Assembly: GCA_000169355.1 (NCBI GenBank)
Contig: AAXX01000001.1
Location: 248,001-312,000 of the forward strand
Length of the DNA: 64,000 bases
Direction of reading: 5' to 3'
From: Flavobacteria bacterium BAL38
GTDB taxonomy: Bacteria > Bacteroidota > Bacteroidia > Flavobacteriales > Flavobacteriaceae
A program made the translations under genes and the position numbers. Shown in pieces: positions 3,002 through 32,055 of the stretch (position 1 is its first letter; every line of letters begins with the position of its first letter). The notes under the pieces are model-generated. The model was not told the origin of the DNA. It searched no databases and worked only from the letters and a program-made list of their open reading frames with translations.

Positions 3002-3118
3002 GTCATAGATTTTTTGCAAAGGTAAAATTAAAATTTAAGGCTTTTAACTATAAATTGGCAAAATGTTAATTATTGTCATTTGATTTTTGATTATTTTAGC
3101 AAAAAATTACCCTTTAAA

Positions 3119-4714
3119 ATGCCAAACGACTGTATAACGTATCAAAATTCAGGCTATTTCATACCGCTAATTGTTGATTATTTAGACCAAAAATCTGAAT
3201 TACAATCGTTATACAATAGATTTCCAAAAATTGAAAACTTTAAAGATCAAATGAGTGAAAAAAATGAAAATTTTCCATTTGAGAATCGTGAAATCTTGGT
3301 GTCTGAATTAGAAAAACAGTATGCAAATTTTGTACTATCTGAAAGTACTTTACACAACATTAAACTCTTAAAACAATCTAATACATATACTATTACCACT
3401 GGGCATCAGCTTAATTTATTTACTGGACCGTTATATTTTTTGTACAAAATTGTTACTACTATTAATTTATGTAAAGAATTAAAAAAATCATACCCAACTG
3501 AAAATTTCGTTCCTATTTATTGGATGGCTACTGAAGACCATGATTTTGAAGAAATCAATTATTTTAATTTTAATGAGGAGAAAATTCAGTGGAAAAAAGA
3601 AAGTAATGGACCCGTTGGCCGATTAGAAACTTCGGAATTAAATTTGGTATTTGAAACTTTTTCATCTAAACTAGGATTAGGAAATAATGCCACTTATTTA
3701 AAAGAATTATTCAAAAAATCGTATCTAGAACATGAAAATTTAGCTGATGCTACCAGATATTTAGCTAACGAGTTATTTAAAAATGAAGGTTTAGTTATTC
3801 TTGATGGCGATTCTAAAGAATTGAAAAAAATATTTCTTCCGCAACTAAAAGAGGAGTTAAAAAACCAAACTTCATTTAAAAAAGTAAATGAAACCATTCT
3901 TAAATTAAAAGAATACAACATTCAAGTTAATCCAAGAGAAATTAACTTATTTTATATTCAAAATAAATTAAGAGAACGCATTATTTTTGAAAACGGAAGT
4001 TATTTAATTAATAACACTAAATTAAAATTTACAGAACAAGAACTTTTGGTTGAATTAGAAAATCATCCAGAAAATTTTAGTCCGAATGTAATATTAAGAC
4101 CACTTTACCAAGAAGTTATTTTACCCAATTTGTGTTATATTGGTGGTGGTGGTGAAATTGCTTATTGGCTTGAATTAAAATCTAATTTTGAAGCAAACAA
4201 AATTACATTTCCCATACTTTTAGTTCGAAATTCTGTCCTTTTAGCAACAGAAAAACAAGTTTCAAAATTAGATAAGTTAAACGTTTGTTGGAATGACGTT
4301 TTTTTATCTCAAAACAAGCTACTAGATAAAAAAACGAAAGAATTTTCTGCGTTCATTATTGATTTTTCGGAACAAAAAGAAACTTTAAGAAAGCAATTTG
4401 AAGCATTATACGAAATTGCTAATAAAACAGATAAGTCTTTTTTAGGAGCTGTAAAAGCTCAAGAAATAAAACAACTAAAAGGTCTTGATAATTTAGAAAA
4501 AAAACTACTTAGAGCCGAAAAAAGAATTCATACTGAAAAATTAAATAGTATTTTAAAAATTCAAGATGAATTATTTCCAAACCATGGTTTACAAGAAAGA
4601 ACAGCAAATTTTGCTGCTTTTTATGATAAAATCAATTCCTATGATGCTTTTTTACAAAAACTACACGCTGATTTACAGCCTTTAGAACATAATTTCACTG
4701 TTGTTACAATTTAA
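3119..4714 (+). CDS. bshC: Bacillithiol biosynthesis cysteine-adding enzyme BshC
   Basis: About 531 residues, the normal BshC length. BshC adds cysteine to glucosaminyl-malate in the last step of bacillithiol synthesis, in the cytoplasm. Family hallmarks: TITTGHQLNLFTGPLYFLYK (nucleotide-binding-like loop), WMATEDHDFEEI, the region ILRPLYQEVILPNLCYIGG, GEIAYWLELK, and a C-terminal coiled coil. I chose the ATG at 3119 (MPNDCITYQ) over the in-frame ATG at 3080, because BshC proteins begin close to that point and the 13 extra residues are encoded by promoter-like AT-rich DNA. It is divergent from the radical SAM gene, with a short shared promoter region. No other bsh gene is in the window. Confidence 0.93.
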   Translation: MPNDCITYQNSGYFIPLIVDYLDQKSELQSLYNRFPKIENFKDQMSEKNENFPFENREILVSELEKQYANFVLSESTLHNIKLLKQSNTYTITTGHQLNLFTGPLYFLYKIVTTINLCKELKKSYPTENFVPIYWMATEDHDFEEINYFNFNEEKIQWKKESNGPVGRLETSELNLVFETFSSKLGLGNNATYLKELFKKSYLEHENLADATRYLANELFKNEGLVILDGDSKELKKIFLPQLKEELKNQTSFKKVNETILKLKEYNIQVNPREINLFYIQNKLRERIIFENGSYLINNTKLKFTEQELLVELENHPENFSPNVILRPLYQEVILPNLCYIGGGGEIAYWLELKSNFEANKITFPILLVRNSVLLATEKQVSKLDKLNVCWNDVFLSQNKLLDKKTKEFSAFIIDFSEQKETLRKQFEALYEIANKTDKSFLGAVKAQEIKQLKGLDNLEKKLLRAEKRIHTEKLNSILKIQDELFPNHGLQERTANFAAFYDKINSYDAFLQKLHADLQPLEHNFTVVTI

Positions 4715-19573: not shown

Positions 19574-21436
19574 ATGAATTACTTATCAGTCGAAAATATA
19601 TCGAAATCATACGGCGAACGCATTCTTTTTAAAGACGTTTCCTTTGGAATTAACAAAGATCAAAAAATAGCTTTTATCGCTAAAAACGGTTCGGGAAAAA
19701 CCACCATTATGAACATGATTAATGGTTTGGATGAACCTGATACGGGTCAGGTTGTGATTCGAAAAGAGATAAAAATGGCTTTTTTGTCGCAAAATAATAA
19801 TTTGCAAGACGAATTAACCATTGAGGAAAATATTTTTGCTTCAGATAATGAAATTTTGAAAGTAATTGAACGCTACGAAAAAGCTTTAGAAAATCCGAAT
19901 GATGAAGAAGCGTATCAACGCGCTTTTGATGATATGGACCGTCATAATGCTTGGGATTTTGAAACGCAATTCAAGCAAATTCTATATAAGCTAAAGTTGG
20001 AAGACTTAAAAATGAAAGTCAAAAACATGTCGGGTGGACAAAAAAAGCGTTTATCATTAGCGATTATTTTAATTAGCAAACCTGATTTATTGATTTTAGA
20101 TGAGCCAACCAATCACTTGGATTTAGAAATGATTGAATGGTTAGAAGATTATTTTGCAAAAGAGAACATCACGTTGTTTATGGTAACGCACGACCGTTTC
20201 TTTTTGGAACGTGTTTGTAACGAAATCATTGAATTAGACAACGGAAAAATATACCAATACAAGGGCAATTATTCGTATTATTTAGAGAAAAAAGAAGAAC
20301 GCCAAATTTCTGAAAATTCTAGTATCGACAAAGCTCAAAACCTTTTCATCAAAGAATTGGCTTGGATGCGCCGTCAACCAAAAGCGAGAACCACTAAATC
20401 AAAATCACGTCAAGATGATTTTTACGTGATTAAAGAAAAAGCCGAAAGCCGAAGAAAAGAAAATGTGGTAGAGCTCGAAATTAACATGGAACGCATGGGA
20501 AGCAAAATTATCGAAATGGTAAAACTGAACAAAAGTTTTCCAGATAGAAAAATTTTGGATGACTTTTCATATTCGTTTCAACGTGGTGAACGTATTGGAA
20601 TTATTGGTAAAAACGGAACTGGAAAATCGACTTTCTTGAATATTTTAACGCAAACCATTCAACCCGATTCAGGTAAAGTAATTATTGGTGATACGATTAA
20701 AATTGGCTATTACACACAAAGTGGCATCAACCCAAAACCGGGACAAAAAGTCATCGATATCATCAAAGAATATGGCGAATATATTCCGTTGACGAAAGGA
20801 AAAATTATTTCGGCATCGCAATTATTGGAACGCTTTTTATTTGATGCCAAAAAACAATATGATTTTGTAGAAAAATTAAGTGGTGGCGAATTGAAACGTT
20901 TGTATTTATGTACGGTTTTGATTCAAAATCCTAATTTCCTGATTCTGGATGAACCTACAAATGACTTGGATATTGTGACGTTAAATGTATTGGAAAGTTT
21001 CTTATTAGATTTCCCAGGCTGCTTGTTAGTAGTGAGTCACGACCGTTATTTTATGGATAAAATTGTGGATCACTTATTTGTTTTTAGAGGCGAGGGTCAA
21101 ATTGAAGATTTCCCAGGAAATTATTCTGATTTTAGAAGTTATGAAGATTCGGCAGAACCAAAAGTACTTTCTAATGTAAGTACAGAAAAGACGAGTTGGA
21201 AAGAAAAAAACACAGCATCAACCGGTTTGAATTTCAACGAACAAAAGGAATTCAATAAATTAGAACGCGAAATCAAAGATTTAGAATACAACAAAAAACA
21301 AATTGAACAAGAATTCGCCGACGGAAAAGTAACTGATGATAAAATTGAAGCGAAAGCAAATGAATTAGAAAAAATCATTCAGTCTTTAGAAGAAAAAGAA
21401 GAACGCTGGTTTGAATTATCAAGTAAAATGGAATAA
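19574..21436 (+). CDS. ABC-F family ATPase (Uup/EttA-like)
   Basis: 620 residues with two ABC ATPase domains and no membrane segments. Domain 1: Walker A AKNGSGKTT (37-45), signature MSGGQKKRLSLA, Walker B LLILDEPTNHLD. Domain 2: GIIGKNGTGKST, LSGGELKRLYLC, FLILDEPTNDLD. Between them lies the linker helix region (WMRRQPKARTTKSKSRQDDF) that reaches the ribosomal P-site tRNA in ABC-F proteins. The C-terminal 90 residues are a charged coiled coil, as in Uup. ABC-F proteins act on ribosomes during stalled translation; some give antibiotic resistance. The Uup-like C-terminus favours a housekeeping role. Confidence 0.93.
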   Translation: MNYLSVENISKSYGERILFKDVSFGINKDQKIAFIAKNGSGKTTIMNMINGLDEPDTGQVVIRKEIKMAFLSQNNNLQDELTIEENIFASDNEILKVIERYEKALENPNDEEAYQRAFDDMDRHNAWDFETQFKQILYKLKLEDLKMKVKNMSGGQKKRLSLAIILISKPDLLILDEPTNHLDLEMIEWLEDYFAKENITLFMVTHDRFFLERVCNEIIELDNGKIYQYKGNYSYYLEKKEERQISENSSIDKAQNLFIKELAWMRRQPKARTTKSKSRQDDFYVIKEKAESRRKENVVELEINMERMGSKIIEMVKLNKSFPDRKILDDFSYSFQRGERIGIIGKNGTGKSTFLNILTQTIQPDSGKVIIGDTIKIGYYTQSGINPKPGQKVIDIIKEYGEYIPLTKGKIISASQLLERFLFDAKKQYDFVEKLSGGELKRLYLCTVLIQNPNFLILDEPTNDLDIVTLNVLESFLLDFPGCLLVVSHDRYFMDKIVDHLFVFRGEGQIEDFPGNYSDFRSYEDSAEPKVLSNVSTEKTSWKEKNTASTGLNFNEQKEFNKLEREIKDLEYNKKQIEQEFADGKVTDDKIEAKANELEKIIQSLEEKEERWFELSSKME

Positions 21437-21444
21437 AAACTAGT

Positions 21445-21526
21445 TTGCAGTCTCAGTCTCAGTTTGCAGATAAAACCGTGACTGAAAACTGTGACTGAAA
21501 ACTGCGACTGAAAACTGTGACTATAA
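21445..21526. repeat. Inverted pair of 6/7-bp word arrays overlapping the methyltransferase start
   Basis: Left half (21445-21463): words ending AGT (TTGCAGT, CTCAGT twice). Right half (21481-21526): ACTGAAA alternating with ACTGTG or ACTGCG, ending ACTATAA. The right half contains a 13-bp unit repeated three times (21478-21516). The presumed GTG start codon of the next gene (21517) is part of the array. Confidence 0.75.
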
Positions 21527-22353
21527 TCAAATCCTACCTAAAATTTCTTTTCCACTCCAAAAACGAACATGGAGTGCATTCGCCTTTTGTGTATGATTTG
21601 GTTACGAAATGTTTTTATGACAACACTAAATATCCAGAATACGAAATAGTAAAATCGTACCGAAAATCGCTTTTAGAAAATAAAAACACAATTGAAGTAA
21701 CGGATTTTGGTGCTGGTTCAAGAGTTTTTAAATCGAATACAAGAGAAATCTCAAAAATTGCACAAACCGCTGGAATTTCCTCAAAAAATGCGGAATTGCT
21801 TTTTAGAATTGTTCGTTATTTTCAACCAAAAAGCATTTTAGAAATTGGAACTTCATTAGGATTAGCAACCTCAGCACTTTCATTAGGAACTGAAAGAGCA
21901 AAAATTATCACATTAGAAGGTTGTCTAAACACGCAAAAGCAAGCGCAAGTTCAATTGCAATCCCGAAGTTTCGGGACAAATTCAAATTTTCAAAATATTG
22001 AATTTATAAACACTGAATTTTCAAGTTATTTCAAAACCCATCACCCATCACCCATCACCCATCACCTAATCTATTTCGATGGCAATCATTCTAAAAAAGC
22101 GACTTTAGATTATTTTGAAGCCTTACTTCCTACTATTTCCAATGATTCCGTTTGGATTTTTGATGACATTCATTGGTCGGCGGACATGGAAGAAGCTTGG
22201 GAAATAATAAAAAATCATCCAAAAGTTACCGTTACCATTGATACTTTTCAGTGGGGAATTGTATTTTTTAGAGCCGAACAAGAAAAAGAACATTTTATCA
22301 TTAATCAGAATAAAACGATTAGTTCGCACTTGTTTGAAAGAATTCGGTTTTAA
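21517..22353 (+). CDS. Class I SAM-dependent methyltransferase (O-methyltransferase-like)
   Basis: 278 residues. The SAM-binding motif I is SILEIGTSLGLATSALSLG, followed by IITLEGC (acidic end of strand 2), a catechol-O-methyltransferase-like pattern, and DLIYFDGNH-type LIYFDGNHSKKATLDYF, then SVWIFDDIHWSADMEEAWEI. The substrate is unknown. The GTG start at 21517 lies inside a tandem repeat, so the true N-terminus is uncertain, although the conserved opening SYLKFLFHSKNEHGVHSPFV follows at once. The gene also carries two repeat insertions: a CCCGAAGTTTCGGG palindrome (residues QSRSFGTN) and four CCCATCA heptamers (THHPSPITHH). Confidence 0.82.
   Translation: MTIIKSYLKFLFHSKNEHGVHSPFVYDLVTKCFYDNTKYPEYEIVKSYRKSLLENKNTIEVTDFGAGSRVFKSNTREISKIAQTAGISSKNAELLFRIVRYFQPKSILEIGTSLGLATSALSLGTERAKIITLEGCLNTQKQAQVQLQSRSFGTNSNFQNIEFINTEFSSYFKTHHPSPITHHLIYFDGNHSKKATLDYFEALLPTISNDSVWIFDDIHWSADMEEAWEIIKNHPKVTVTIDTFQWGIVFFRAEQEKEHFIINQNKTISSHLFERIRF
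21961..21976. repeat. Palindrome of the CCCGAAGCTTCGGG family inside the methyltransferase gene
   Basis: TCCCGAAGTTTCGGGA at 21961-21976, one mismatch from a perfect palindrome. It shares its flank (GACAArTTCAA) with the copy at 24628-24643 in the MATE gene; a related palindrome is at 28863-28878. It is translated in frame as part of QSRSFGTN. Confidence 0.7.
22037..22064. repeat. Four-unit heptamer array inside the methyltransferase gene
   Basis: Four copies of CCCATCA in a row (equivalently ACCCATC in the phase used for the other arrays). Translated as part of THHPSPITHHL. An intergenic array of similar words (ACCCATG, ACCTATC) occurs at 63524-63555 on the other strand. Confidence 0.8.
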
Positions 22354-22407
22354 TTGTAACAAATTCCTTCCTTTTTCTACTTATAATAGTGTTGTATCAA
22401 TAATATT

Positions 22408-22430
22408 GTCATCTCGAGCGAAGTCGAGAG
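22408..22430. repeat. Dispersed palindrome built on CTCGAGCGAAGTCGAG
   Basis: An imperfect palindrome between the methyltransferase and the ABC ATPase genes. The inverted form of the same word lies inside the radical SAM gene at 2803-2826. It has no T run, so it is not a typical terminator. Confidence 0.6.
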
Positions 22431-22449
22431 GCTAAATTCTAATTTCATT

Positions 22450-23151
22450 ATGGCAAATCCGTTAATCAAAATAACCAATATCAAAAGAGATTTCCCTTTA
22501 GGAAACGAAATCGTTTATGTGTTAAAAGGCATCGATTTAGAAATTAATAAAGGCGAATATGTAGCATTAATGGGACCTTCGGGTTCTGGAAAATCGACTT
22601 TGATGAATCTTTTAGGTTGTTTAGATACGCCAACTTCTGGAACTTACATTTTAAACGGAAAATACGTTAGTGAAATGCAAGACGATGAGTTAGCTGGCAT
22701 CCGAAATAAAGAAATTGGATTTGTTTTCCAAACTTTTAATTTAATGCCAAGAACCACAGCTTTAGACAATGTAGCATTACCAATGGTTTATGCAGGTCAT
22801 TCCAAATCAGAACGTGTGGAACGTGCTACTGAAGTATTGACACAAGTGGGATTAGATGACAGAATGGATCACAAACCTAATCAACTTTCAGGTGGTCAAC
22901 GCCAACGTGTAGCAGTAGCAAGAGCTTTGGTGAACAAACCTTCTATCATTTTAGCCGATGAGCCAACAGGAAACTTAGATAGTAAAACTTCGGTTGAAAT
23001 CATGAATTTATTCAATGAAATTCACGCCAACGGAAACACCGTAATTTTAGTAACTCACGAAGAAGACATTGCGGCTTATGCACACAGAGTCATACGTTTA
23101 CGTGATGGAATTATTGAAAGCGACACGATAAATCAGAATATTAAAAAGTAA
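22450..23151 (+). CDS. ABC transporter ATP-binding protein (LolD/MacB/FtsE-like)
   Basis: 233 residues, one complete ABC ATPase: Walker [11 protein letters not shown]-loop [13 protein letters not shown], signature [15 protein letters not shown], Walker [13 protein letters not shown] and the H-loop [11 protein letters not shown]. The Q-loop sequence and overall form match the MacB/LolD group, which energises lipoprotein release or peptide and macrolide export by type VII ABC permeases. No permease gene is adjacent; its partner must be encoded elsewhere. It ends at a terminator. Confidence 0.92.
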
Positions 23152-23170
23152 ATTCAACTCACAATATTTA

Positions 23171-23206
23171 AACCTGACAAGATTATAAATCCTGTCGGGT
23201 TTTTTC
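23171..23206 (+). terminator. Terminator after the ABC ATPase gene
   Basis: Nine-bp stem with one G-T pair (AACCTGACA at 23171-23179, TGTCGGGTT at 23193-23201), followed by a T run that runs into the next promoter. Confidence 0.8.
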
Positions 23207-23236
23207 TTGCTTTGATTTTCAAAATAACTACCTTTG
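23207..23236 (+). promoter_or_regulatory. Bacteroidota-type promoter of the MATE gene
   Basis: TTG at 23207-23209, 19-bp spacer, TACCTTTG at 23229-23236: an exact consensus match. It fixes the start codon at 23252, since the in-frame TTG at 23234 is part of the -7 box. Confidence 0.8.
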
Positions 23237-23251
23237 CCCAAAATCTCCAAA

Positions 23252-24664
23252 ATGACTTTTTCCGATTATACAAAAGAGTTTTCTTACAATTTAAAATTAG
23301 CCTACCCTATTATTTTAGGGATGTTAGGCCATACCATAGTGGGAATTGTAGATAACATAATGGTAGGAAAATTAGGTCCAACGGAATTAGCAGCGGTGTC
23401 ATTAGGAAACAGTTTTGTATTCATTGCTATGTCGCTAGGAATTGGATTTTCAACCGCAATAACACCTTTAGTTGCAGAATCTGATGGAAAAAGTGATGTA
23501 GCTGGAGGTCGTTCGGCATTTCATCACGGGTTGTATTTATGTACCATTTTAGGAGTCGCTTTATTTACTTTAATCTTTTTTGCAAAGCCTTTAATTGCTT
23601 ATATGGGGCAACCTAAAGCAGTTGTTGACATGGCAAAACCGTATTTAGATATTGTAGGTTTTTCTCTGATTCCGCTAATTATGTATCAAGCGTACAAACA
23701 ATTTGCAGACGGATTGAGTGAAACCAAATATTCCATGTGGGCAACAATTATTGGAAATGTTACCAATGTAGTTATTAACTATTTTTTGATTTATGGAATT
23801 TGGATCTTTCCAGAATTAGGTATTGTGGGAGCAGCTATTGGAACAATTGCTTCTAGATTCGTGATGTTAGGTTTTATGCATTATATGATGAATTTAAAAC
23901 CAAAATTTCATCCATATTTTAAAGGGTTCATCTTAAAAGAAATTAAAAAAGAGGTCAATTTAAAAATCATTAAATTAGGTTCGCCTTCTGCTATGCAAAT
24001 GTTTTTTGAAGTAGCTTTATTTACAGGAGCCATTTGGTTGTGTGGTATGATTGGAACAACAAGTCAAGCAGCAAATCAAGTTGCACTAAGTTTGGCTTCG
24101 GTTACTTTCATGTTTGCCATGGGATTAAGCGTTACTGCAATGATTCGAGTAGGAAACCAAAAAGGATTAGAAGATTATAAAAAACTTCGAAAAGTAGCTA
24201 TTTCTATTTTTCTGTTAACTATATTAATTGAAGTTGTTTTTGCTTTACTTTTCATAGCATTACACACTACTTTACCTTATATTTTTGTTGATATAAATGA
24301 TGCAGAAAACCTATCTAAAAATTTAGAAGTAATTTCAATTTCTGCCAATTTACTTTTGGTCGCTGCGGTTTTTCAAATATCCGATGGATTACAGGTAGTA
24401 GTTTTAGGAGCGCTTCGTGGATTGCAAGACGCAAAAATTCCAATGTATATTACGTTTATCGCCTATTGGGTAATTGGATTTCCTATTTCAATTTACTTAG
24501 GATTAGAAACCGAATTAAAAGCTGTTGGCGTTTGGATTGGATTATTAGCAGGATTAACAGCAGCAGCGATATTTTTGTATATTCGCTTTAATTATTTGAT
24601 AAAAAAACTGGTTCAATTGCAAACCAATCCCGAAGCTTCGGGACAAGTTCAATTACAATCATAA
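23252..24664 (+). CDS. MATE family efflux transporter
   Basis: 470 residues with about twelve membrane helices. The N-terminal MatE domain shows LAYPIILGMLGHTIVGIVDN, IMVGKLGPTELAAVSLGNS and GIGFSTAITPLVAES, characteristic of the NorM branch. These inner-membrane antiporters export drugs or metabolites using a Na+ or H+ gradient. The second half repeats the fold (MQMFFEVALFTGAIWLCGMI). The extreme C-terminus (QTNPEASGQVQLQS) is encoded by a dispersed palindrome and may be an acquired tail. Confidence 0.93.
   Translation: MTFSDYTKEFSYNLKLAYPIILGMLGHTIVGIVDNIMVGKLGPTELAAVSLGNSFVFIAMSLGIGFSTAITPLVAESDGKSDVAGGRSAFHHGLYLCTILGVALFTLIFFAKPLIAYMGQPKAVVDMAKPYLDIVGFSLIPLIMYQAYKQFADGLSETKYSMWATIIGNVTNVVINYFLIYGIWIFPELGIVGAAIGTIASRFVMLGFMHYMMNLKPKFHPYFKGFILKEIKKEVNLKIIKLGSPSAMQMFFEVALFTGAIWLCGMIGTTSQAANQVALSLASVTFMFAMGLSVTAMIRVGNQKGLEDYKKLRKVAISIFLLTILIEVVFALLFIALHTTLPYIFVDINDAENLSKNLEVISISANLLLVAAVFQISDGLQVVVLGALRGLQDAKIPMYITFIAYWVIGFPISIYLGLETELKAVGVWIGLLAGLTAAAIFLYIRFNYLIKKLVQLQTNPEASGQVQLQS
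24628..24643. repeat. Perfect 16-bp palindrome in the 3' end of the MATE gene
   Basis: TCCCGAAGCTTCGGGA. It encodes the NPEASG part of the C-terminal tail. Related to the elements at 21961 and 28863. Confidence 0.7.
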
Positions 24665-24686
24665 AAAGAATTTAAAACATAAAAAC

Positions 24687-24917
24687 ATGAACTTACCAAA
24701 ATTTGTAATCGGAGACAATACCGATTTTCCTGAAGATATTTTCGTAATCCATTTAGAATATCCAAGATTCGTAATCAATTTAAAAGATGACGAAGTAGAA
24801 TTTTTAGAAGACATTGAAGAAGAAGACGAAAAAGAATTGGAATCTGAAATGGAACATTTAATTACCATTGCTGGAGAATTCTACGATAGAGAAATTGAAC
24901 GTTACGAGCAAGAATAG
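24687..24917 (+). CDS. Small acidic conserved protein of unknown function
   Basis: 76 residues: MNLPKFVIGDNTDFPEDIFV, then IHLEYPRFVINLKDDEVEFL, then a very acidic helix (EDIEEEDEKELESEMEHL). No signal peptide or membrane segment, so probably cytoplasmic. It starts 22 bp after the MATE stop codon and 13 bp before the next gene, suggesting cotranscription. I recognise it as a conserved small Flavobacteriaceae protein without assigned function. Confidence 0.78.
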   Translation: MNLPKFVIGDNTDFPEDIFVIHLEYPRFVINLKDDEVEFLEDIEEEDEKELESEMEHLITIAGEFYDREIERYEQE

Positions 24918-24930
24918 TATAATGTTTTAG

Positions 24931-25296
24931 ATGGCTTACCTAGAAAAACAACTTTTAAATTTAGTTAAATTTCATTGTAATGAGCTAATCGATTTTAATT
25001 CTCAACTTGAAATTCGAACTTTAAAAGTTTACAAACATAAAAAGAAAGAGAAGTTATTGAAATACAAAAATTATTTTCTGTATTTAGCTGAAAATGATTT
25101 TATAAATTATGAAGAAAATTCCATTCAAGTTTTTTTGATAAGTAATTTTACAACCAAAAGACATTTTATTGTAGTAATTGAATTTCAACATTTTGCAAAT
25201 GGTTTGAAAGAAGAAAAGTTAATCTTATTTTATGAAACCACTAAATTTTGGAAAAAATTATTAATCTCGAAATATGACTTAATTGTGAATTACTAA
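24931..25296 (+). CDS. Conserved hypothetical protein (121 residues)
   Basis: 121 residues, basic at the centre (KVYKHKKKEKLLKYKNYFLY), with a strand-rich second half (FTTKRHFIVVIEFQHFANGL). No signal peptide, membrane helix or known motif. It follows the acidic 76-residue gene by 13 bp and may pair with it. Its stop codon lies inside a heptamer array (25292-25319). Confidence 0.7.
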   Translation: MAYLEKQLLNLVKFHCNELIDFNSQLEIRTLKVYKHKKKEKLLKYKNYFLYLAENDFINYEENSIQVFLISNFTTKRHFIVVIEFQHFANGLKEEKLILFYETTKFWKKLLISKYDLIVNY

Positions 25297-25319
25297 TCAC
25301 TTTTTACTAATTACTATTT
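25292..25319. repeat. Heptamer array at the stop codon of the 121-residue gene
   Basis: Four consecutive 7-bp words: ACTAATC, ACTTTTT, ACTAATT, ACTATTT. It corresponds to one half of the palindromic array at 12500-12563. It ends where the meaB remnant begins. Confidence 0.75.
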
Positions 25320-25391
25320 ATTAAAATACTGTTCCAACAAACTCATGGCCGCTGCAAAAGGTGAAATTTCATTAGTTGAAACGTATTTTTT
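25314..25391 (-). pseudogene. Displaced 3' end of meaB
   Basis: On the minus strand this stretch reads KKYVSTNEISPFAAAMSLLE then QYFNK and a stop. It aligns with the C-terminus of the intact MeaB (KKAVQKNELSPFAAAMSLLK then EYFKE). At DNA level, 25321-25364 matches 26685-26728 in 41 of 44 positions, including 29 identical bases in a row (25336-25364 and 26700-26728). It has no start codon or upstream frame. It looks like the original end of meaB, cut off when the DUF4143 gene was inserted with a replacement end. Confidence 0.8.
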
Positions 25392-25410
25392 ATGCGTTTT
25401 CAAAATAAAG

Positions 25411-25497
25411 TACAATGTAATTTCAAATTACAATATAGTGTAATTTCAAAATAAACTATAGTGAAAATTCAAAATACACTATGGTGAAAATTCAAAT
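25411..25497. repeat. 23-bp tandem repeats upstream of the DUF4143 gene
   Basis: Three full units of 23 bp (25429-25451, 25452-25474, 25475-25497) and one 18-bp partial unit (25411-25428). Shared core: TA.a.TATaGTG.AA.TTCAAA. They end eight bases before the -7 box of the DUF4143 gene, so they are placed as an operator or iteron set. The A+T content is very high. Confidence 0.75.
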
Positions 25498-25504
25498 TTT
25501 ATCA

Positions 25505-25512
25505 TATATTTG
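25505..25512 (+). promoter_or_regulatory. -7 promoter box of the DUF4143 gene
   Basis: TATATTTG matches TAnnTTTG exactly. No TTG is found 19 bp upstream; that position is inside the last 23-bp repeat, which may hold a regulator or activator instead. The start codon is 18 bp downstream. Confidence 0.6.
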
Positions 25513-25530
25513 TATTCTAATCAATTAACC

Positions 25531-26688
25531 ATGAGTTCAAACAGAGTGATAAAACAAGAAATGGATATTTACAAAAAAAAATATCCTATTTTGGCGTTGA
25601 CGGGTCCAAGACAATCTGGTAAAACAACATTTCTAAAAACTCAATTTCCAGAATATGAATACGTAAATTTAGAAAACATCGACTCTAGAAATTTTGCTAT
25701 AGAAGACCCAAAGAGTTTTCTAAAACAATATGATAAGTATGTTGTTTTTGATGAAGTACAACGAGTTCCACAATTATTTTCTTATTTGCAAACCAAAGTT
25801 GATGAGGATAAAACAATGGGACAATATATCTTGTCTGGTTCGCAAAATTTTCATCTCATGCAAAATATTACACAAAGTCTCGCTGGAAGAGTTGCTTTGT
25901 TTAAATTATTACCTTTTGATATTGAGGAAATGCAAATGGCTAACTGGCTAAATGATGATTACTCGGTAAACCTTCAAAAAGGATTTTATCCTGCAATTTA
26001 TGATCGTGAAATTCCATCAAAAGCTTTTTATTCTAACTATATTCAAACCTATGTAGAACGCGATTTATCTGAAATAATTCAGATAAAAGATTTAAAACAA
26101 TTTCGAAAGTTTATTTCACTCTGTGCAGCTCGCGTTGGACAACTACTCAATTTGAATTCATTAGCCAACGAATGTGGAATTACACAACCAACAGCAAAAT
26201 CTTGGATTTCTGTTTTAGAAAGTAGTTATATTGTTTATCAATTACAGTCTTATCATTCCAATTTCAATAAACGAGTAACAAAAAGTCCAAAACTCTATTT
26301 TTATGACACAGGCTTACTTTGTTTTTTACTTAAAATTAATGATGCTGATAGTGTGAAATTGAGTTCATTAAAAGGGAGTTTATTTGAGAATTATGTAATT
26401 AATGAATTTGTTAAAAAAAATTATCACAACAATTTACTACGTGATCTATGGTTTTGGCGTGATGCTGTTGGACATGAAGTAGATTTAATTTGGCAAAAAT
26501 CGGAATTACTAAATATAGTTGAAATAAAAGCATCTGAAACCATAATGTCTGAAATGTTCAAAGGACTAAATTATTTTGAAAAATGGGCACCTAATTTAAT
26601 TGAAAGCAGAACCTTAATTCATACAGGATTATTTAATCAAGAAAGAACATTAGGAAAAGTAGCCAGTTGGAAAAACATTACTCTTTAA
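25531..26688 (+). CDS. AAA-type ATPase with DUF4143 C-terminal domain
   Basis: 385 residues from the ATG at 25531; the upstream in-frame TTG at 25510 is inside the -7 box. N-terminal ATPase with Walker A LTGPRQSGKTT (24-33) and Walker B KYVVFDEVQRVP (Asp74, Glu75), sensor-like ILSGSQNFHLM. The C-terminal half is DUF4143 (FYDTGLLCFLL, GSLFENYVINEFVKK, RDAVGHEVDLIW) with the nuclease-like EVDLI...EIKAS pattern. The function of this family is unknown; the genes are sporadic and mobile in genomes. Here it is inserted next to meaB, overlaps its 3' end by 11 bp, and is bracketed by copies of the meaB tail. Confidence 0.88.
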   Translation: MSSNRVIKQEMDIYKKKYPILALTGPRQSGKTTFLKTQFPEYEYVNLENIDSRNFAIEDPKSFLKQYDKYVVFDEVQRVPQLFSYLQTKVDEDKTMGQYILSGSQNFHLMQNITQSLAGRVALFKLLPFDIEEMQMANWLNDDYSVNLQKGFYPAIYDREIPSKAFYSNYIQTYVERDLSEIIQIKDLKQFRKFISLCAARVGQLLNLNSLANECGITQPTAKSWISVLESSYIVYQLQSYHSNFNKRVTKSPKLYFYDTGLLCFLLKINDADSVKLSSLKGSLFENYVINEFVKKNYHNNLLRDLWFWRDAVGHEVDLIWQKSELLNIVEIKASETIMSEMFKGLNYFEKWAPNLIESRTLIHTGLFNQERTLGKVASWKNITL

Positions 26689-27814
26689 AATACTCTTTTA
26701 ACAAACTCATGGCCGCTGCAAAAGGTGACAATTCATTTTTTTGCACGGCTTTTTTGTTTTCTTCTAGTAGTTGAATGATATTTGGATGATTGTAAAAATG
26801 CGATTTCAATTGTTCATTAATCGTTTCCATCATCCAAAATTGGTTTTGATTTTGACGTTTATCTTCGAAATAATGATTTGCTTTTACCAATTCAAAATAC
26901 TCGGAAATGATGTCCCAAATTGCATCGATTCCTGTTTGTTCATAAGCGCTACAAGTGGTAACTTTTGGAATCCAACCCGAAGATTTAGCAGGAAATAAAT
27001 GCAAGGCTCTGTTGAATTCAGTTTTTGCTAATTTGGCTTTCGCAATATTATCGCCATCCGCTTTATTGATTACGATAGTATCTGCCATTTCCATGATGCC
27101 ACGTTTGATTCCTTGCAACTCATCACCAGCACCTGAAATTTTCAATAACAAAAAGAAATCGACCATACTATGAACGGCAGTTTCGCTCTGCCCTACTCCA
27201 ACGGTTTCAATAATTATGGTATCAAAACCACAGGCTTCACATAAAATTATAGATTCACGTGTTTTTCTAGCAACACCGCCTAAAGTATCACCCGAAGCAC
27301 TTGGTCTAATGAATGCATTTTCATCTTTTACCAATTCTTCCATACGGGTTTTATCGCCCAAAATACTACCGTGACTGATTGACGAACTTGGGTCAACCGC
27401 TAAAACAGCCACTTTCTTTCCGATGGAAGTCAAATATTTTCCAAAAGCTTCAATAAACGTACTTTTTCCAACGCCAGGAACGCCGGTAATTCCTATTCGA
27501 ACGGAATTATTCGCATGTGGCAAACAACCTTTAATTACTTCGTTTGCTTTTGTTAAATGCTCCGGATTAGTACTTTCTACCAAAGTTATAGCGCGACTTA
27601 AAGCCGTTTTATCACCTTTTAAAATTCCAGCAATCAGATCTTCTGCCGAAGGTTGTTTTCTTCGAAATTGTTGAATTTGCGTGGCTACAACACTACTAAG
27701 CATTTCGGGTTGGTTTACGCCATGAATTTCTGAAAGTGCCGATTTTTTATTAGGTGTTTTCAAAAGAATAATTGCTTTGTGTAAAAATACAAAAATTGTA
27801 GGAATATAAAACAT
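26678..27814 (-). CDS. meaB: Methylmalonyl-CoA mutase-associated GTPase MeaB (ArgK family)
   Basis: Up to 378 residues. A G3E-family GTPase chaperone that protects and reactivates B12-dependent methylmalonyl-CoA mutase. P-loop GVPGVGKST (111-119), VLAVDPSSSISHGSILGDKT, the G3 region ETVGVGQSE, NKADGD for guanine recognition, and the C-terminal dimerisation arm ending PFAAAMSLLKEYFKE. The N-terminal 20-40 residues are not conserved; a start nearer KTPNKKSALSE is possible but would need a TTG codon. The last codons and the stop (26678-26680) lie inside the convergent DUF4143 gene, consistent with a replaced 3' end. Confidence 0.93.
   Translation of the reverse strand: MFYIPTIFVFLHKAIILLKTPNKKSALSEIHGVNQPEMLSSVVATQIQQFRRKQPSAEDLIAGILKGDKTALSRAITLVESTNPEHLTKANEVIKGCLPHANNSVRIGITGVPGVGKSTFIEAFGKYLTSIGKKVAVLAVDPSSSISHGSILGDKTRMEELVKDENAFIRPSASGDTLGGVARKTRESIILCEACGFDTIIIETVGVGQSETAVHSMVDFFLLLKISGAGDELQGIKRGIMEMADTIVINKADGDNIAKAKLAKTEFNRALHLFPAKSSGWIPKVTTCSAYEQTGIDAIWDIISEYFELVKANHYFEDKRQNQNQFWMMETINEQLKSHFYNHPNIIQLLEENKKAVQKNELSPFAAAMSLLKEYFKE
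26685..26728. repeat. Distal copy of the 44-bp meaB-tail direct repeat
   Basis: This copy is within the functional meaB 3' end. It matches 25321-25364 with 3 mismatches in 44 bases. The two copies, 1364 bp apart, bracket the DUF4143 cassette like attachment sites. Confidence 0.75.
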
Positions 27815-27859
27815 CGTTGTCTTTATGTTTAATTATCTTTGTATTCTTGATTTCGATAC

Positions 27860-28768
27860 ATGGAAAACATCCTACTTTTATTTTTATGTTTGATTTTGGG
27901 CGTTGCGCTTCAAAAAGTGCCACAATTTCCTAAAAACGCTTATCAAAGTTTGAATCAATTCGTGATTTACGTTTCGCTTCCGGCTTTGGCGTTGTATTAC
28001 ATTCCAAAAATTACCATTTCAATTGCTTTGCTTTATCCTATTGGAATTGCGTGGTTGGGTTTCGGATTATCGTTTGTATTTTTTTATGCTTTGGGAACCT
28101 ATTTTAAATGGTCGAAAAAGTTAACTGGTTGTTTAATTTTAACCGGAGGATTGAGCAATACCTCCTTTGTAGGATTTCCAATTATTGAAGCTTTATATGG
28201 CGCTGAAGGATTGAAAACAGCCATCATTGTTGACCAACCCGGTTCCTTCGTAGTCGTAACCACTTTAGGAATTTTAGTCGCAGCTAGTTTCTCTAGAGGC
28301 AATTTAAGTACATCTGAAATCCTTTTAAAAATTGTAAAATTTCCACCTTTCATCGCTTTTACAATTGCACTTTGTTGTACTATTTTCTCTTTAGAATTTC
28401 CAGAAGCGTTACAAAATTCCTTTTTAAGAATTGGAAATACGGTAACTCCTGTAGCCTTAGTAGCCGTTGGTTTGCAATTAAAAATTGATACTCGAAGTAA
28501 ACATTGGTCATTTTTAACTTTAGGATTATTTTTCAAATTAATTCTAATGCCCGCTTTTTTCTTCTTGCTTTACAAAATTGCGTTAGGCGGAAAAGGATTA
28601 GAAATCGATGTTTCTATTATGGAATCTGCGATGGCACCCATGATAACAGGAGCTATTTTAGCTTCTAACTACGGATTAAAACCGAAATTAAGCAGTATGA
28701 TGATTGGGATAGGGATTCCGTTGTCGTTGTTGACGGTGGCTTTTTGGTATTGGGTTTTGAGTTTGTAG
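27860..28768 (+). CDS. AEC (auxin efflux carrier) family transporter
   Basis: 302 residues with about ten membrane helices, the Mem_trans (AEC) family. Signatures: ILGVALQKVPQFPKNAYQSL, FVIYVSLPALALYYIPK, a central GLSNTSFVGFPIIEALYG and a C-terminal MAPMITGAILASNYGL. Members export carboxylates such as malate or small hydrophobic acids across the inner membrane. A -7 box TATCTTTG lies at 27834-27841, 18 bp before the ATG. It is divergent from meaB. Confidence 0.9.
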   Translation: MENILLLFLCLILGVALQKVPQFPKNAYQSLNQFVIYVSLPALALYYIPKITISIALLYPIGIAWLGFGLSFVFFYALGTYFKWSKKLTGCLILTGGLSNTSFVGFPIIEALYGAEGLKTAIIVDQPGSFVVVTTLGILVAASFSRGNLSTSEILLKIVKFPPFIAFTIALCCTIFSLEFPEALQNSFLRIGNTVTPVALVAVGLQLKIDTRSKHWSFLTLGLFFKLILMPAFFFLLYKIALGGKGLEIDVSIMESAMAPMITGAILASNYGLKPKLSSMMIGIGIPLSLLTVAFWYWVLSL

Positions 28769-29029
28769 TTTTGTAACACAAAGTTTCTCAAAGTTAAGCA
28801 CGAAGTAACGCAAAGTTTTTTTAAAACACATAGCCACATTAGTTTTGAATTGCGTTTAGTTAGTCCGAAGCTTCGGACGTTTCACTTTACATAGATTACA
28901 TAGACAAAATCATATAACCTTAATCTTCTTATATGACTTATATGTTTAATTTTATATGTGTCTCCTATGTTTGCTAAGTTATAGATTTTAATATTTAAAG
29001 TCAATAATTTTACAAGTTTAAAGTGAAAT
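28769..29029. other. Repeat-rich intergenic stretch upstream of the IS110 element
   Basis: No gene is visible. It contains CAAAG-type low-complexity repeats (28778-28826: CACAAAG, CTCAAAG, CGCAAAG words), a perfect 16-bp palindrome GTCCGAAGCTTCGGAC (28863-28878), and TATATG/CATAG words (28890-28980). The same CATAG/TATGTG words recur at 30330-30340 beyond the transposase, suggesting the IS landed in a repeat cluster. Confidence 0.6.
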
Positions 29030-29218
29030 AGAATGAGAGAACAAATGTGTCTAAATAGTTCAAAGAAACATATTCTCACATAGAAATATCCTCATTCTTT
29101 TTTATCTTTTAGAGTCTGAACAGAATGTAAGGAATTAAGTTTAGCTTAATATCCAGAATATCCAATAAGGAGAAAAGACGAAGGAAGATTCATCACTTTA
29201 TTATTTAAAATTAAAGTT
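29030..29218 (+). ncRNA. Candidate bridge-RNA region of the IS110-family element
   Basis: Non-coding DNA directly upstream of the transposase with two clear folds: an 8-bp perfect stem AGAATGAG / CTCATTCT (29030-29037, 29091-29098) containing an inner AGAA/TTCT stem, and a hairpin GGA.ATTAAG-TTTAG-CTTAAT.TCC (29131-29154). IS110-family recombinases are known to use a structured RNA from the element's non-coding end as a guide. Exact RNA limits and guide loops cannot be read from a single copy. If the left end is at 29110, only the second hairpin belongs to the element. Confidence 0.35.
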
Positions 29219-30262
29219 ATGAAGGAATTAAAACAGGTTGTTGGAATTGATGTTGCACAAAAGGAATTGGTGGTAACAATTGGAAGGTTATTAGAGGACT
29301 TATCCGTTGATTTATTTTCTTATAAGGTTTTCAAGAATAATGACAAAGGATTTTTAAGTTTGGTTGAATGGGTTGCTAAATTAGTTGAAAATCCCAAAGA
29401 AGTCCATTATGTAATGGAAGCTACGGGAGTTTATCACCAAAAGATTGCTTATTTTTTAGATACCAATCAATTGAAAGTTAGTATCGTTTTACCAAACAAA
29501 ATAAGTAATTATTTTAGAACATTAGAAGTAAAAACTATTACAGACAAAACATGTTCTCAAGTAATAGCAAGATTTGGTCTAGAAAGAAAATTAGATTTAT
29601 GGAAAAGACCAAAGACGGTTTACAAAAAATTACAACAATTAACTAGAGAGCGAGATCAAATTGTAGCGGAAAGAGTAATTGTAAAAAATCAGTTACACGC
29701 AGAAAAAATAGAAGCTGAGCCCAACTTAATGACTTTAAAAAGAATAAGCGAAAGAATGAAATTACTGAATAAACAAGAAAATGAAATTAAAAATGACATC
29801 TCTCAAATTCTGAAAAACAATGCAGAGTTGAAAAAAGAAACAGATAGAATGATGACTATTCCAGGGATAGGAGAATTGACTGCGGTAATAATTTTAGCAG
29901 AAACAAATGGATTTGAATTGATACGTAACAAAAAACAACTAACTAGCTATGCTGGCCTTGATGTAAAAGAGAAACAATCAGGAACATCAATAAAAGGAAA
30001 GCCTAAAATATCAAAAAAAGGAAACAGAAGTATTAGAAAAGCAATGCATTTTCCTTCTTTAGTAGCTGTAAAATGGGATGAAAACTTCAAAGAATTATAT
30101 GCAAGATTAGTATCAAAACATGGAATAAAAATGAAAGCATTAGTATCGATACAAAGAAAATTATTAGAAATGAGTTATGTTTTGTATAAAAATCAAACCA
30201 TATACGATAAAGAATATAAAAATAGCGTGCAAACACAAATGGCTTAACACGCTATAGAGTCT
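29110..30262 (+). mobile_element. IS110-family insertion sequence
   Basis: The element carries one transposase gene and, as typical for IS110, no terminal inverted repeats. The sequence TAGAGTCT occurs on both sides (29110-29117 and 30255-30262) and includes a CT dinucleotide, the usual core in this family, so I use it as a provisional boundary; the true left end may be further upstream. No second copy is in the window to confirm it. Confidence 0.6.
29219..30247 (+). CDS. IS110-family transposase (DEDD recombinase)
   Basis: 342 residues. N-terminal DEDD (RuvC-like) domain: VVGIDVAQKELVV (Asp11), YVMEATGVYHQK (Glu67), VKTITDKTCSQVIARFG (Asp109). The fourth acidic residue, expected three positions after Asp109, is Cys112 here. 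A coiled-coil linker follows (about 135-210). The C-terminal Transposase_20 domain shows MTIPGIGELTAVIILAE, YAGLDVKEKQSGTSIKGKPK (Ser254 as the likely nucleophile) and ISKKGNRSIRKAM. It is full length without frameshift, so possibly active. The enzyme recombines a circular element with target DNA. Confidence 0.93.
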   Translation: MKELKQVVGIDVAQKELVVTIGRLLEDLSVDLFSYKVFKNNDKGFLSLVEWVAKLVENPKEVHYVMEATGVYHQKIAYFLDTNQLKVSIVLPNKISNYFRTLEVKTITDKTCSQVIARFGLERKLDLWKRPKTVYKKLQQLTRERDQIVAERVIVKNQLHAEKIEAEPNLMTLKRISERMKLLNKQENEIKNDISQILKNNAELKKETDRMMTIPGIGELTAVIILAETNGFELIRNKKQLTSYAGLDVKEKQSGTSIKGKPKISKKGNRSIRKAMHFPSLVAVKWDENFKELYARLVSKHGIKMKALVSIQRKLLEMSYVLYKNQTIYDKEYKNSVQTQMA

Positions 30263-30382
30263 AGTTTTAAACTGACTTAAAACAAAATTATAAAAAAATA
30301 TAGATTTTTGTTGTAAATCAACACAGAATCTATGTGTTTGAAATATTACACATTTATTATCTTTACACTTCAATTTTATACT

Positions 30383-31780
30383 ATGAATCCAGAAATTTTA
30401 CTTGCGCTTGAGAACATTGTAGGTTCGGCTTATATTTTTACTGATGAAACTACTCGTAAAACCTATGGTCATGACGAAACGGAAGATTTGAGTTTTCCGC
30501 CTCATGTTGTAGTAAAGCCTGCCAATACAGAAGAAGTTGCGCAAATTTTAAAAGTTTCGAATACCTATAAAATTCCAACAACACCAATTGGTGCGCGTAC
30601 GGGTTTGAGTGGTGGTGCTTTGTCTATTTATGGTGGCATTGCGATTTCGATGGAGCGATTTAATAAAATTATTGAGATTGATGAGAAAAATTTGCAAGTA
30701 ACCACAGAACCTGGAGTAATTACGCAGGTTTTACGTGAAGCTGTTGCCGAGAAAGGCTTGTTTTATCCCGTAGATCCAAGTAGTATGGGAAGTTGTTGGA
30801 TTGGTGGAAATATCGCTGAAAATTCAGGTGGCGCAAGAGCTTTGAAATATGGTGTTACAAAAGATTATGTACTAAATTTAGAAGTGGTTTTACCCACTGG
30901 TGATATTATTTGGACAGGTGCCAATACCTTAAAAAATTCAACGGGTTACAACCTAACACAATTGATGATTGGTAGCGAGGGAACATTAGGAATTGTAACT
31001 AAAGCAGTTTTAAAACTTTTACCACAAAACAAACATAACATTTTACTTTTAGTTCCTTTTTATCAAGCGGAACAAGCATGTGAAGCCGTTTCAGCAATTT
31101 TTAGAGCGGGAATTATTCCTAGTGCAATCGAATTTATGGAACGCGATGCGATTGATTGGACATTGAAATTTGTCGATGGTTTGAATGTGGAAGTCAAAAA
31201 CGACGTTCAAGCGCATTTGCTGATTGAAGTGGATGGTAATTATCCAGAAATTTTGATGCAAGAAGCCGAACAAATTTTGGCAGTCGTAGAACAATTTGAA
31301 ATTGACGAAGTATTATTTGCCGATACCGAAGAACAAAAAAATGCCCTTTGGAAAATGCGTCGCTCTGTGGCAGAAGCGGTGAAAGCAAATTCGATTTATA
31401 AAGAAGAAGATACGGTTGTACCACGATATGAATTACCTAAATTATTAAAAGGAATCAAAGAAATTGGTACTAAATATGGATTTCAATCGGTGTGTTATGG
31501 ACATGCAGGAGATGGTAATTTACACGTAAACATCATCAAAGGCAACATGAGCGATGCCAATTGGAAAACCGAGGTTCCAAAAGGAATTCGAGAGATTTTT
31601 AAATTAACGGTTGGTTTAAAAGGAACGTTATCAGGTGAACACGGTATTGGTTTGGTGCAAAAAAACTACATGGATATTGCGTTTTCAAAAGTACATTTAG
31701 AATTAATGGAACGCATTAAAGCCATTTTTGACCCCAATAATGTGTTGAATCCTGGGAAGATTTTTCCTGATGGGGAATGA
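30383..31780 (+). CDS. FAD-binding oxidoreductase, GlcD/D-lactate dehydrogenase type
   Basis: 465 residues from the ATG at 30383; the 17 residues that an upstream ATG at 30332 would add look like intergenic sequence. FAD-binding PCMH domain: VVVKPANTEEVAQILKV, TTPIGARTGLSGGALSIYGG, VDPSSMGSCWIGGNIAENSG, and STGYNLTQLMIGSEGTLGIV. C-terminal FAD-oxidase domain: YGHAGDGNLHVNI and GTLSGEHGIGLVQK, ending FDPNNVLNPGKIFP. The family oxidises D-lactate, glycolate or 2-hydroxyglutarate. No GlcE or GlcF partner is adjacent, so a single-subunit 2-hydroxyacid dehydrogenase is likely. Confidence 0.92.
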   Translation: MNPEILLALENIVGSAYIFTDETTRKTYGHDETEDLSFPPHVVVKPANTEEVAQILKVSNTYKIPTTPIGARTGLSGGALSIYGGIAISMERFNKIIEIDEKNLQVTTEPGVITQVLREAVAEKGLFYPVDPSSMGSCWIGGNIAENSGGARALKYGVTKDYVLNLEVVLPTGDIIWTGANTLKNSTGYNLTQLMIGSEGTLGIVTKAVLKLLPQNKHNILLLVPFYQAEQACEAVSAIFRAGIIPSAIEFMERDAIDWTLKFVDGLNVEVKNDVQAHLLIEVDGNYPEILMQEAEQILAVVEQFEIDEVLFADTEEQKNALWKMRRSVAEAVKANSIYKEEDTVVPRYELPKLLKGIKEIGTKYGFQSVCYGHAGDGNLHVNIIKGNMSDANWKTEVPKGIREIFKLTVGLKGTLSGEHGIGLVQKNYMDIAFSKVHLELMERIKAIFDPNNVLNPGKIFPDGE

Positions 31781-31785
31781 TTAAT

Positions 31786-32055
31786 TTAATTCTTAGAAAA
31801 CTTTTTAAAAATCACAAACCCAATTAAACTTCCTACTAAAAACGAAACAATAAAATTTGTCAAATTAGGATCAGGATGACCATTACTTCCTGGATAAGCT
31901 GTAAAGAATAAACTCATGATGTAATTCATTTCATGAGAATGATAATAACATAGATCTGGGATTAATAAATAGTATAAAACTGTAAAGCTAAAAATTGAAG
32001 CAATAAAACCTCCAATAATTATAAATAACCATTTATTAAAATTTGTGTATTTCAT
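31786..32055 (-). CDS. Small membrane protein of unknown function
   Basis: 89 residues with two strong hydrophobic segments (about 9-31 and 66-82) separated by a loop with CYYHSHEMNYIMSLFFTAYP and an NGHPDPN turn. Probably an inner-membrane protein with both termini in the cytoplasm. It lies 1 bp from the next minus-strand gene (32057) and ends 5 bp from the convergent oxidase gene. I do not recognise a family. Confidence 0.65.
   Translation of the reverse strand: MKYTNFNKWLFIIIGGFIASIFSFTVLYYLLIPDLCYYHSHEMNYIMSLFFTAYPGSNGHPDPNLTNFIVSFLVGSLIGFVIFKKFSKN

Follow-up and report, generated by a model that had tools for sequence, protein, structure and literature searches.

How did a gene for a DUF4143 ATPase come to lie between two 3' ends of meaB in Flavobacteria bacterium BAL38, and where does each of the two ends come from? 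The locus belongs to a 64,000-nt stretch of DNA (hereafter, the window; contig AAXX01000001.1, positions 248,001 to 312,000), and its features are, from left to right:

24687..24914, + strand: ORF of 76 aa, a conserved neighbor of meaB (tblastn match in 19/30 meaB loci; the 30 include the window's own locus, truncated there and without a match)
24931..25293, + strand: ORF of 121 aa, a native neighbor (a 92% identical ORF adjoins meaB in genome G067); a Pfam search gave no match
25314..25371, − strand: stranded native 3' end of meaB, the old end (collinear with the empty site of G067, locus L034)
25372..25397, no strand assigned: junction of remnant and element, perhaps with a few more meaB-like codons (native similarity is lost here)
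25398..25512, + strand: tandem array 5' of the DUF4143 gene, with copies 23 bp apart
25531..26688, + strand: AAA_14/DUF4143 gene, 385 aa (Pfam AAA_14, E 3e-29; DUF4143, E 4e-48)
26678..26731, − strand: live, altered 3' end of meaB (ORF reading; mismatch pattern against relatives)
26678..27814, − strand: meaB, a GTPase gene, the host gene (Pfam MeaB, E 6.5e-105)

The DUF4143 gene (ATG at 25531, stop at 26686-26688) and meaB are arranged tail to tail and overlap by 11 nt, and the live meaB stop codon (complement of 26678-26680) sits in the last DUF4143 codons, as was already seen in the first-pass annotation, which was made from the letters of the window alone. The remnant ends with the C-terminus NEISPFAAAMSLLEQYFNK followed by a stop. 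A direct repeat of 71 nt (25321-25391 and 26685-26755, 83% identical) flanks the DUF4143 gene and thus confirms its placement between two meaB ends; the 44-bp repeat with 3 mismatches noticed originally comprises, on recounting, the first 44 nt of this longer one. The flank-repeat score is 38 at meaB, compared to 14 or less in 20 shuffles. The remnant had been drawn from 25314 to 25391; it can be considered certain over 25314-25371, from comparison with the empty site of G067, and weak meaB resemblance continues over 25372-25391, a part of uncertain origin. The array and the DUF4143 gene form a 1.3-kb stand-alone unit between two host-gene ends, a well-supported conclusion, and the unit contains nothing else, in agreement with the earlier remark that no integrase is present. 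The ORF list of 20000-32000 includes no full second meaB by the element; the ORF at 29219-30247 presumably resembles an IS110-family transposase.

Position identifies the native end. In G067, which retains the empty site, the 76-aa ORF, the 121-aa ORF and a one-ended meaB are contiguous; the window tracks this order from the ORFs to 25371, leaves it into the element and rejoins native meaB on the right. Because the window is collinear with the empty site up to 25371, the stranded end is the native one, so that the proposal of an old meaB end left behind by the insertion holds. Without the DUF4143 gene, meaB has a single tail, as had been anticipated: of 29 meaB loci elsewhere in the genus, 0/29 contain a DUF4143-like match and 0/29 a second tail within 1500 nt. 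Over 60 nt, the identities of the remnant and the live end to the five nearest relatives are 52/49, 53/50, 54/48, 55/48 and 51/49, and among all 29 meaB relatives, 18 are closer to the remnant and 7 to the live end, with 4 ties. Since all five nearest relatives resemble the remnant more than the live end, the replacement end looks like another meaB allele, as suggested initially.

The two meaB copies share an identical 28-nt core, and the mismatches on its two sides are reciprocal. Upstream of the core (28 nt), the live copy shows 2-5 mismatches to the five relatives and the remnant 6-8; downstream (22 nt), the live copy shows 5-7 and the remnant 0-7, with relative L035 not telling the two copies apart on this side. 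Such reciprocal mismatches, read here over about 50 positions, would result if resident meaB and an incoming allele crossed over in the core; the live meaB end could be traced to no donor.

The arrangement recurs. Other DUF4143 genes with duplicated host-gene ends, envisaged in the first-pass annotation, were found at several other conserved genes, namely, rnhA, sufD, polA (at the 5' end), uvrB, fumarase and gmd. In the subfamily of close DUF4143 relatives from named genomes, flank repeats occur at 10/33 loci, or 9/32 when L082 and L083, a single insertion in two assemblies, are counted once (this screen used a slightly different seed and threshold from the later ones; all ten loci pass the later threshold of 24). 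Six of these 10 are host-gene ends named by family searches: the rnhA 3' end in L066, L068 and L072, the sufD 3' end in L069, and the polA 5' end in L082 and L083. In L063, the same gene end, which we take to be HipA-like, is present on both sides of the element, and the gene has no Pfam match; of the remaining three repeats, one is intergenic, one is an array and one is an unassigned 31-mer. A further rnhA case is found in G078 (L003). The broader DUF4143 family in the genus shows flank repeats at 5/55 loci, four of which are gene ends (fumarase in L029 and L239, uvrB in L221, gmd in L229), after 9/64 loci in which no gene was recognized had been dropped; the analysis covered 30 loci and 40 more of the listed genus matches, the weakest being omitted. 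The family is patchy, with any match in 46/150 genus genomes, and in G097, too, a DUF4143 gene lies 172 nt from fumarase.

Further peculiarities were noticed. A stray fumarase end, 88% identical, lies some 7 kb away from the intact gene (G056:C15:27839-27937), with weaker counterparts in G142 and G147; an era-like gene has a 24-bp tandem duplication at its end, beside the end of a DUF4143 gene (L007, ~1430-1478); and the stranded gmd end in L229 (2836-2997) has an extra C-terminal stretch absent from the 11 gmd relatives read, part of which is also found, out of frame, after the live gmd stop.

Elements occur in both directions with respect to the host gene, and within rnhA the start of the duplicated stretch varies; L069 is the only locus where inspection by eye revealed a short overlap at the second junction. 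Integration at a specific site in a gene 3' end, to which the meaB case was originally likened, is rejected because there is no integrase and no fixed attachment core or orientation: the host genes differ, polA is affected at its 5' end, both orientations occur and the start in rnhA is variable. Integration by a recombinase supplied in trans, with the gene end as the attachment core, would fit the 28-nt identical core and the reciprocal divergence in meaB, and gene ends are classic attachment sites, but this explanation is highly improbable in view of a unit without integrase, many unrelated host genes, both orientations and a duplicated length that varies.

Is the duplicated end connected with DUF4143 at all? 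The alternative is that these gene ends are landing spots for any cassette. At six host genes without a DUF4143-like match, a second end within 1500 nt was found in 1/116 loci (a count without L095, L199 and L200, where the tail was not found, and without L287, a gmd locus with the remnant past the stretch covered, but including G138, L261, the carrier of a relic). The single exception, L121, has a toxin-antitoxin-like cassette at the rnhA 3' end, with the rnhA end stranded behind it; Pfam identifies DUF2281 in it, together with a ParE match too weak for the cut-off (E 0.006). In L065, a DUF1016/YhcG nuclease gene (2713-3732; Pfam) separates rnhA from the DUF4143 element there, and the nuclease gene has on its two sides the copies of a 125-nt duplication that consists of the rnhA end and the first array repeat. 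These two cases display the same architecture with other genes, and DUF1016 genes more generally were flagged for flank repeats in 5/28 cases, some by way of interspersed repeats. Against this, DUF4143 lies between the copies at seven host genes that could be named and at an eighth that could not, and flank repeats are found at only 1/28 Fic genes and at 2/77 other large ORFs of the same loci, one of the two being the DUF1016 gene at rnhA (2 Fic, 2 DUF1016 and 3 DUF4143 loci were dropped before counting). A duplication unrelated to DUF4143 is therefore quite improbable in our estimate. The subfamily exceeds the other ORFs (10/33 vs 2/77, P 8e-5) and Fic (10/33 vs 1/28, P 0.008), and the broader family is not clearly commoner than Fic (5/55 vs 1/28, P 0.66); these P values are optimistic because loci at one site share ancestry, yet are treated as independent. 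Separately, a cassette similar to that of L121 is found beside DUF4143 in L067.

The two ends could be an imported allele and a native one, or they could result from a target-duplicating insertion (roughly 45-130 bp), with ends identical at birth and the stranded one decaying later. In the latter case, the differences should be mostly non-synonymous. Across eleven live/stranded pairs, 46 synonymous vs 26 non-synonymous codon differences were counted (P 2e-12 given a neutral expectation of 24.5% synonymous; P 0.001 against 45%), with synonymous to non-synonymous ratios of 6:0 in uvrB, 7:1 in rnhA of L066, 7:3 in gmd and 4:1 in fumarase of L029. The signal is absent in meaB (2 synonymous, 5 non-synonymous; not significant) and in polA (2:3), and the rnhA remnant of L072 contains two stops. 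Because synonymous differences dominate, the ends appear to have diverged as working gene ends rather than through the decay of one copy, and most pairs look like two working alleles.

Comparison with relatives outside meaB yields a different picture. The relatives closer to the live copy number 20, 23, 26 and 20 of 30 in the rnhA cases, 10/11 in gmd, where the relatives end like the live copy, and 13/14 in fumarase of L029; the split is 6 closer to the live vs 1 closer to the stranded copy in uvrB (of 11), 14 vs 6 in sufD (of 24) and even in fumarase of L239 (4 vs 4). Since relatives are mostly nearer the live copy elsewhere, the sequence argument for a native stranded copy depends on meaB, and target duplication stays in contention as a rival; later drift of the stranded copy would place relatives nearer the live copy under either import or duplication. 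In sufD, the flank behind the remnant is that of the insertion-free G160, and the live copy's stop is followed directly by unrelated DNA; the two copies differ at 3/124 nt, less than any relative differs from either, so that an imported end must come from a very close strain. Thus, sufD would reflect either a very close donor or duplication, and it is the case where target duplication is least excludable. The uvrB copies show 6/126 differences, and across this full length relatives hardly discriminate between them; the remnant agrees with the insertion-free G106 in its last 12 nt, with no match between the DNA behind the remnant and G106, and the live end is common to G138. This last genome (L261) harbors a DUF4143 relic at uvrB, in which the element leader and the first codons are kept and the gene is lost.

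On balance, target duplication draws on the nearly identical sufD and uvrB copies, the proximity of relatives to the live copy outside meaB and the two stops in one rnhA remnant. We consider it improbable given that the excess of synonymous differences is not expected of decay and that, in meaB, it is the live copy that departs from the relatives.

The account that we prefer, with barely better than even confidence, is that the gene arrived joined to an imported host-gene end and entered by homologous recombination, as argued by the mostly synonymous codon differences between the two ends. The array and the DUF4143 gene would be a mobile unit that travels with a meaB 3' end from a different allele. 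By homologous recombination within the meaB end, the incoming DNA would enter the chromosome, such that meaB receives the imported end followed by the new gene, and the native end stays behind with its own neighbors on the far side. That the stranded end keeps its native flank at meaB and sufD is well supported. The exchange might be homologous at one end and illegitimate at the second junction, or else a circular molecule bearing the gene end might integrate through a single crossover; breaks made by the element's own predicted nuclease may promote the exchange. No integrase would be needed because the traveling host-gene end itself is the homology.

A tree of 38 DUF4143 proteins bears on how far the elements move. 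The same insertion site is found in related hosts: elements at the rnhA site (L062 being assigned to it by its pfkB-side neighbor only) form one clade, with the sufD and aguB-side members and the L063 case as branches nested inside it; the three Belliella cases cluster according to site, and so does the pabB pair, with modest support; and the cysS site occurs in two places of the tree. Sites are shown to be kept within clades, with occasional changes. By eye, the element of L064, at rnhA, is adjoined by the same gene-end piece as that of L063, and the element of L092, at another gene, has an apparent degraded polA start beside it, as if these flanks were dragged along with the element.

The array of the window runs into a TATATTTG motif (25505-25512), and we assume that array and motif, located 5' of the DUF4143 gene, have a putative promoter role. 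Upstream arrays accompany 35/36 subfamily genes, with a period of 22 in 24 and of 23 in 11, and 49/55 broader-family genes, mostly with a period of 32. In total, a phased upstream array was detected in 84/91 genes of the Bacteroidota DUF4143 sample, vs 8/124 control genes (Fic, DUF1016, meaB, rnhA and sufD), the latter with no common period; the shuffles permuted single letters for the broader family and letter pairs for the subfamily and controls, and controls with an unusable frame or flank were dropped. No array was found upstream of DUF4143 in L006 and L007, and among six distant plasmid homologues, an array is present in 1/6; the array is not general beyond the Bacteroidota sample. The array motifs vary between lineages, as judged by eye. 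Periods of about two or three helical turns suggest a protein that binds along a single DNA face, perhaps the DUF4143 protein itself. A single TGTAATTTCA-like site, which by eye resembles an array unit, is found upstream of DUF4143 in L303 and L304 (Azotobacter and Runella plasmids).

The DUF4143 protein consists of an AAA+ ATPase, a helical, winged-helix-like part and a C-terminal PD-(D/E)XK-like fold, according to AlphaFold2 models, of which the best, built from 33 sequences, has a mean pLDDT of 81 (50-70 in the other four), with residues 106-126 poorly modeled. D318 and E331 are invariant, and K333 nearly so, in the 33 sequences, such that the predicted nuclease motif is intact. By Foldseek, full-length similarity to known structures is weak (TM about 0.2); the matches point to the Cdn1 and Can2 nucleases, Cdc6/Orc1 and RuvB, and further down the ranking, at E above 0.001, come McrBC and a Holliday junction resolvase. 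Searches of NCBIfam and of PDB sequences with the window protein gave nothing, and phage records yielded 6 matches, all below 60% identity. The PADLOC profile PDC-S01 matches the window protein with E 1.4e-95. PDC-S01, a candidate defence family yet to be validated, is reported to rank fourth in frequency among prokaryotic defence families, and most PDCs are described as awaiting validation (PMC12988326).

With such a domain at hand, the transfer might be driven by homing: the predicted PD-(D/E)XK nuclease would cut a conserved gene end, donor repair would copy an uncuttable end together with the element, and the remnant would be the other side of the cut, as in intronless homing. Apart from the nuclease-like fold with its conserved D318, E331 and K333, the conservation of the host genes, the sites common within clades and the synonymous differences between ends are compatible with this explanation; the subfamily enrichment in flank repeats and the shared sites favor a nuclease drive, and the L121 cassette, which lacks this nuclease and has the same architecture, and the flat rate in the broader family count against it, as do the different starting places of the rnhA remnants. 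We regard homing as unlikely, and a purely nuclease-driven account is rejected as the sole model given the L121 cassette, with its other content and the same architecture. It is conceivable, albeit doubtful, that PDC-S01/DUF4143 proteins are selfish homing ATPase-nucleases that cut a conserved end and supply a recoded, uncuttable one, the array being their own binding site; if true, this would be a natural cleave-and-rescue drive, though PDC-S01 ranks among the commonest 'defence' genes.

If, as in the preferred account of an imported gene end, PDC-S01 genes travel alone, displace conserved ends and carry arrays, many of them may be mobile genes instead of immune systems, or both. The stranded ends mark single transfers, and the arrays offer a direct biochemical handle on the almost unstudied DUF4143 family. 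A literature search gave no description of this pattern among the matches listed, and several known systems invite comparison. Integrative elements inserted in gene 3' ends restore the gene; the elements described here similarly bring DNA that supplies a working gene end, but do so without an integrase, a fixed site or a fixed orientation. For PDC-S01, whose PADLOC models match the window protein, the excerpted text of the source mentions neither gene-end duplication nor arrays (PMC12988326). The free-standing homing endonucleases of T4-like phages, as portrayed in the excerpt of PMC2988022, are likewise lone nuclease-type genes next to a conserved gene, with a co-inherited flank; unlike in intronless homing of this kind, an AAA+ ATPase is fused here to a predicted nuclease-like domain, the setting is bacterial chromosomes and the old end is retained. 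Homology-facilitated illegitimate recombination has been proposed, in the portion of the source consulted, for the T6SS effector-immunity modules of Vibrio cholerae, where a one-sided homology anchor in a conserved stretch brings in new cargo and an older piece is stranded (PMC5361080); the DUF4143 elements share these traits, and, unlike the T6SS modules as described there, their cargo is a single ATPase-nuclease gene with its array, at unrelated conserved genes.
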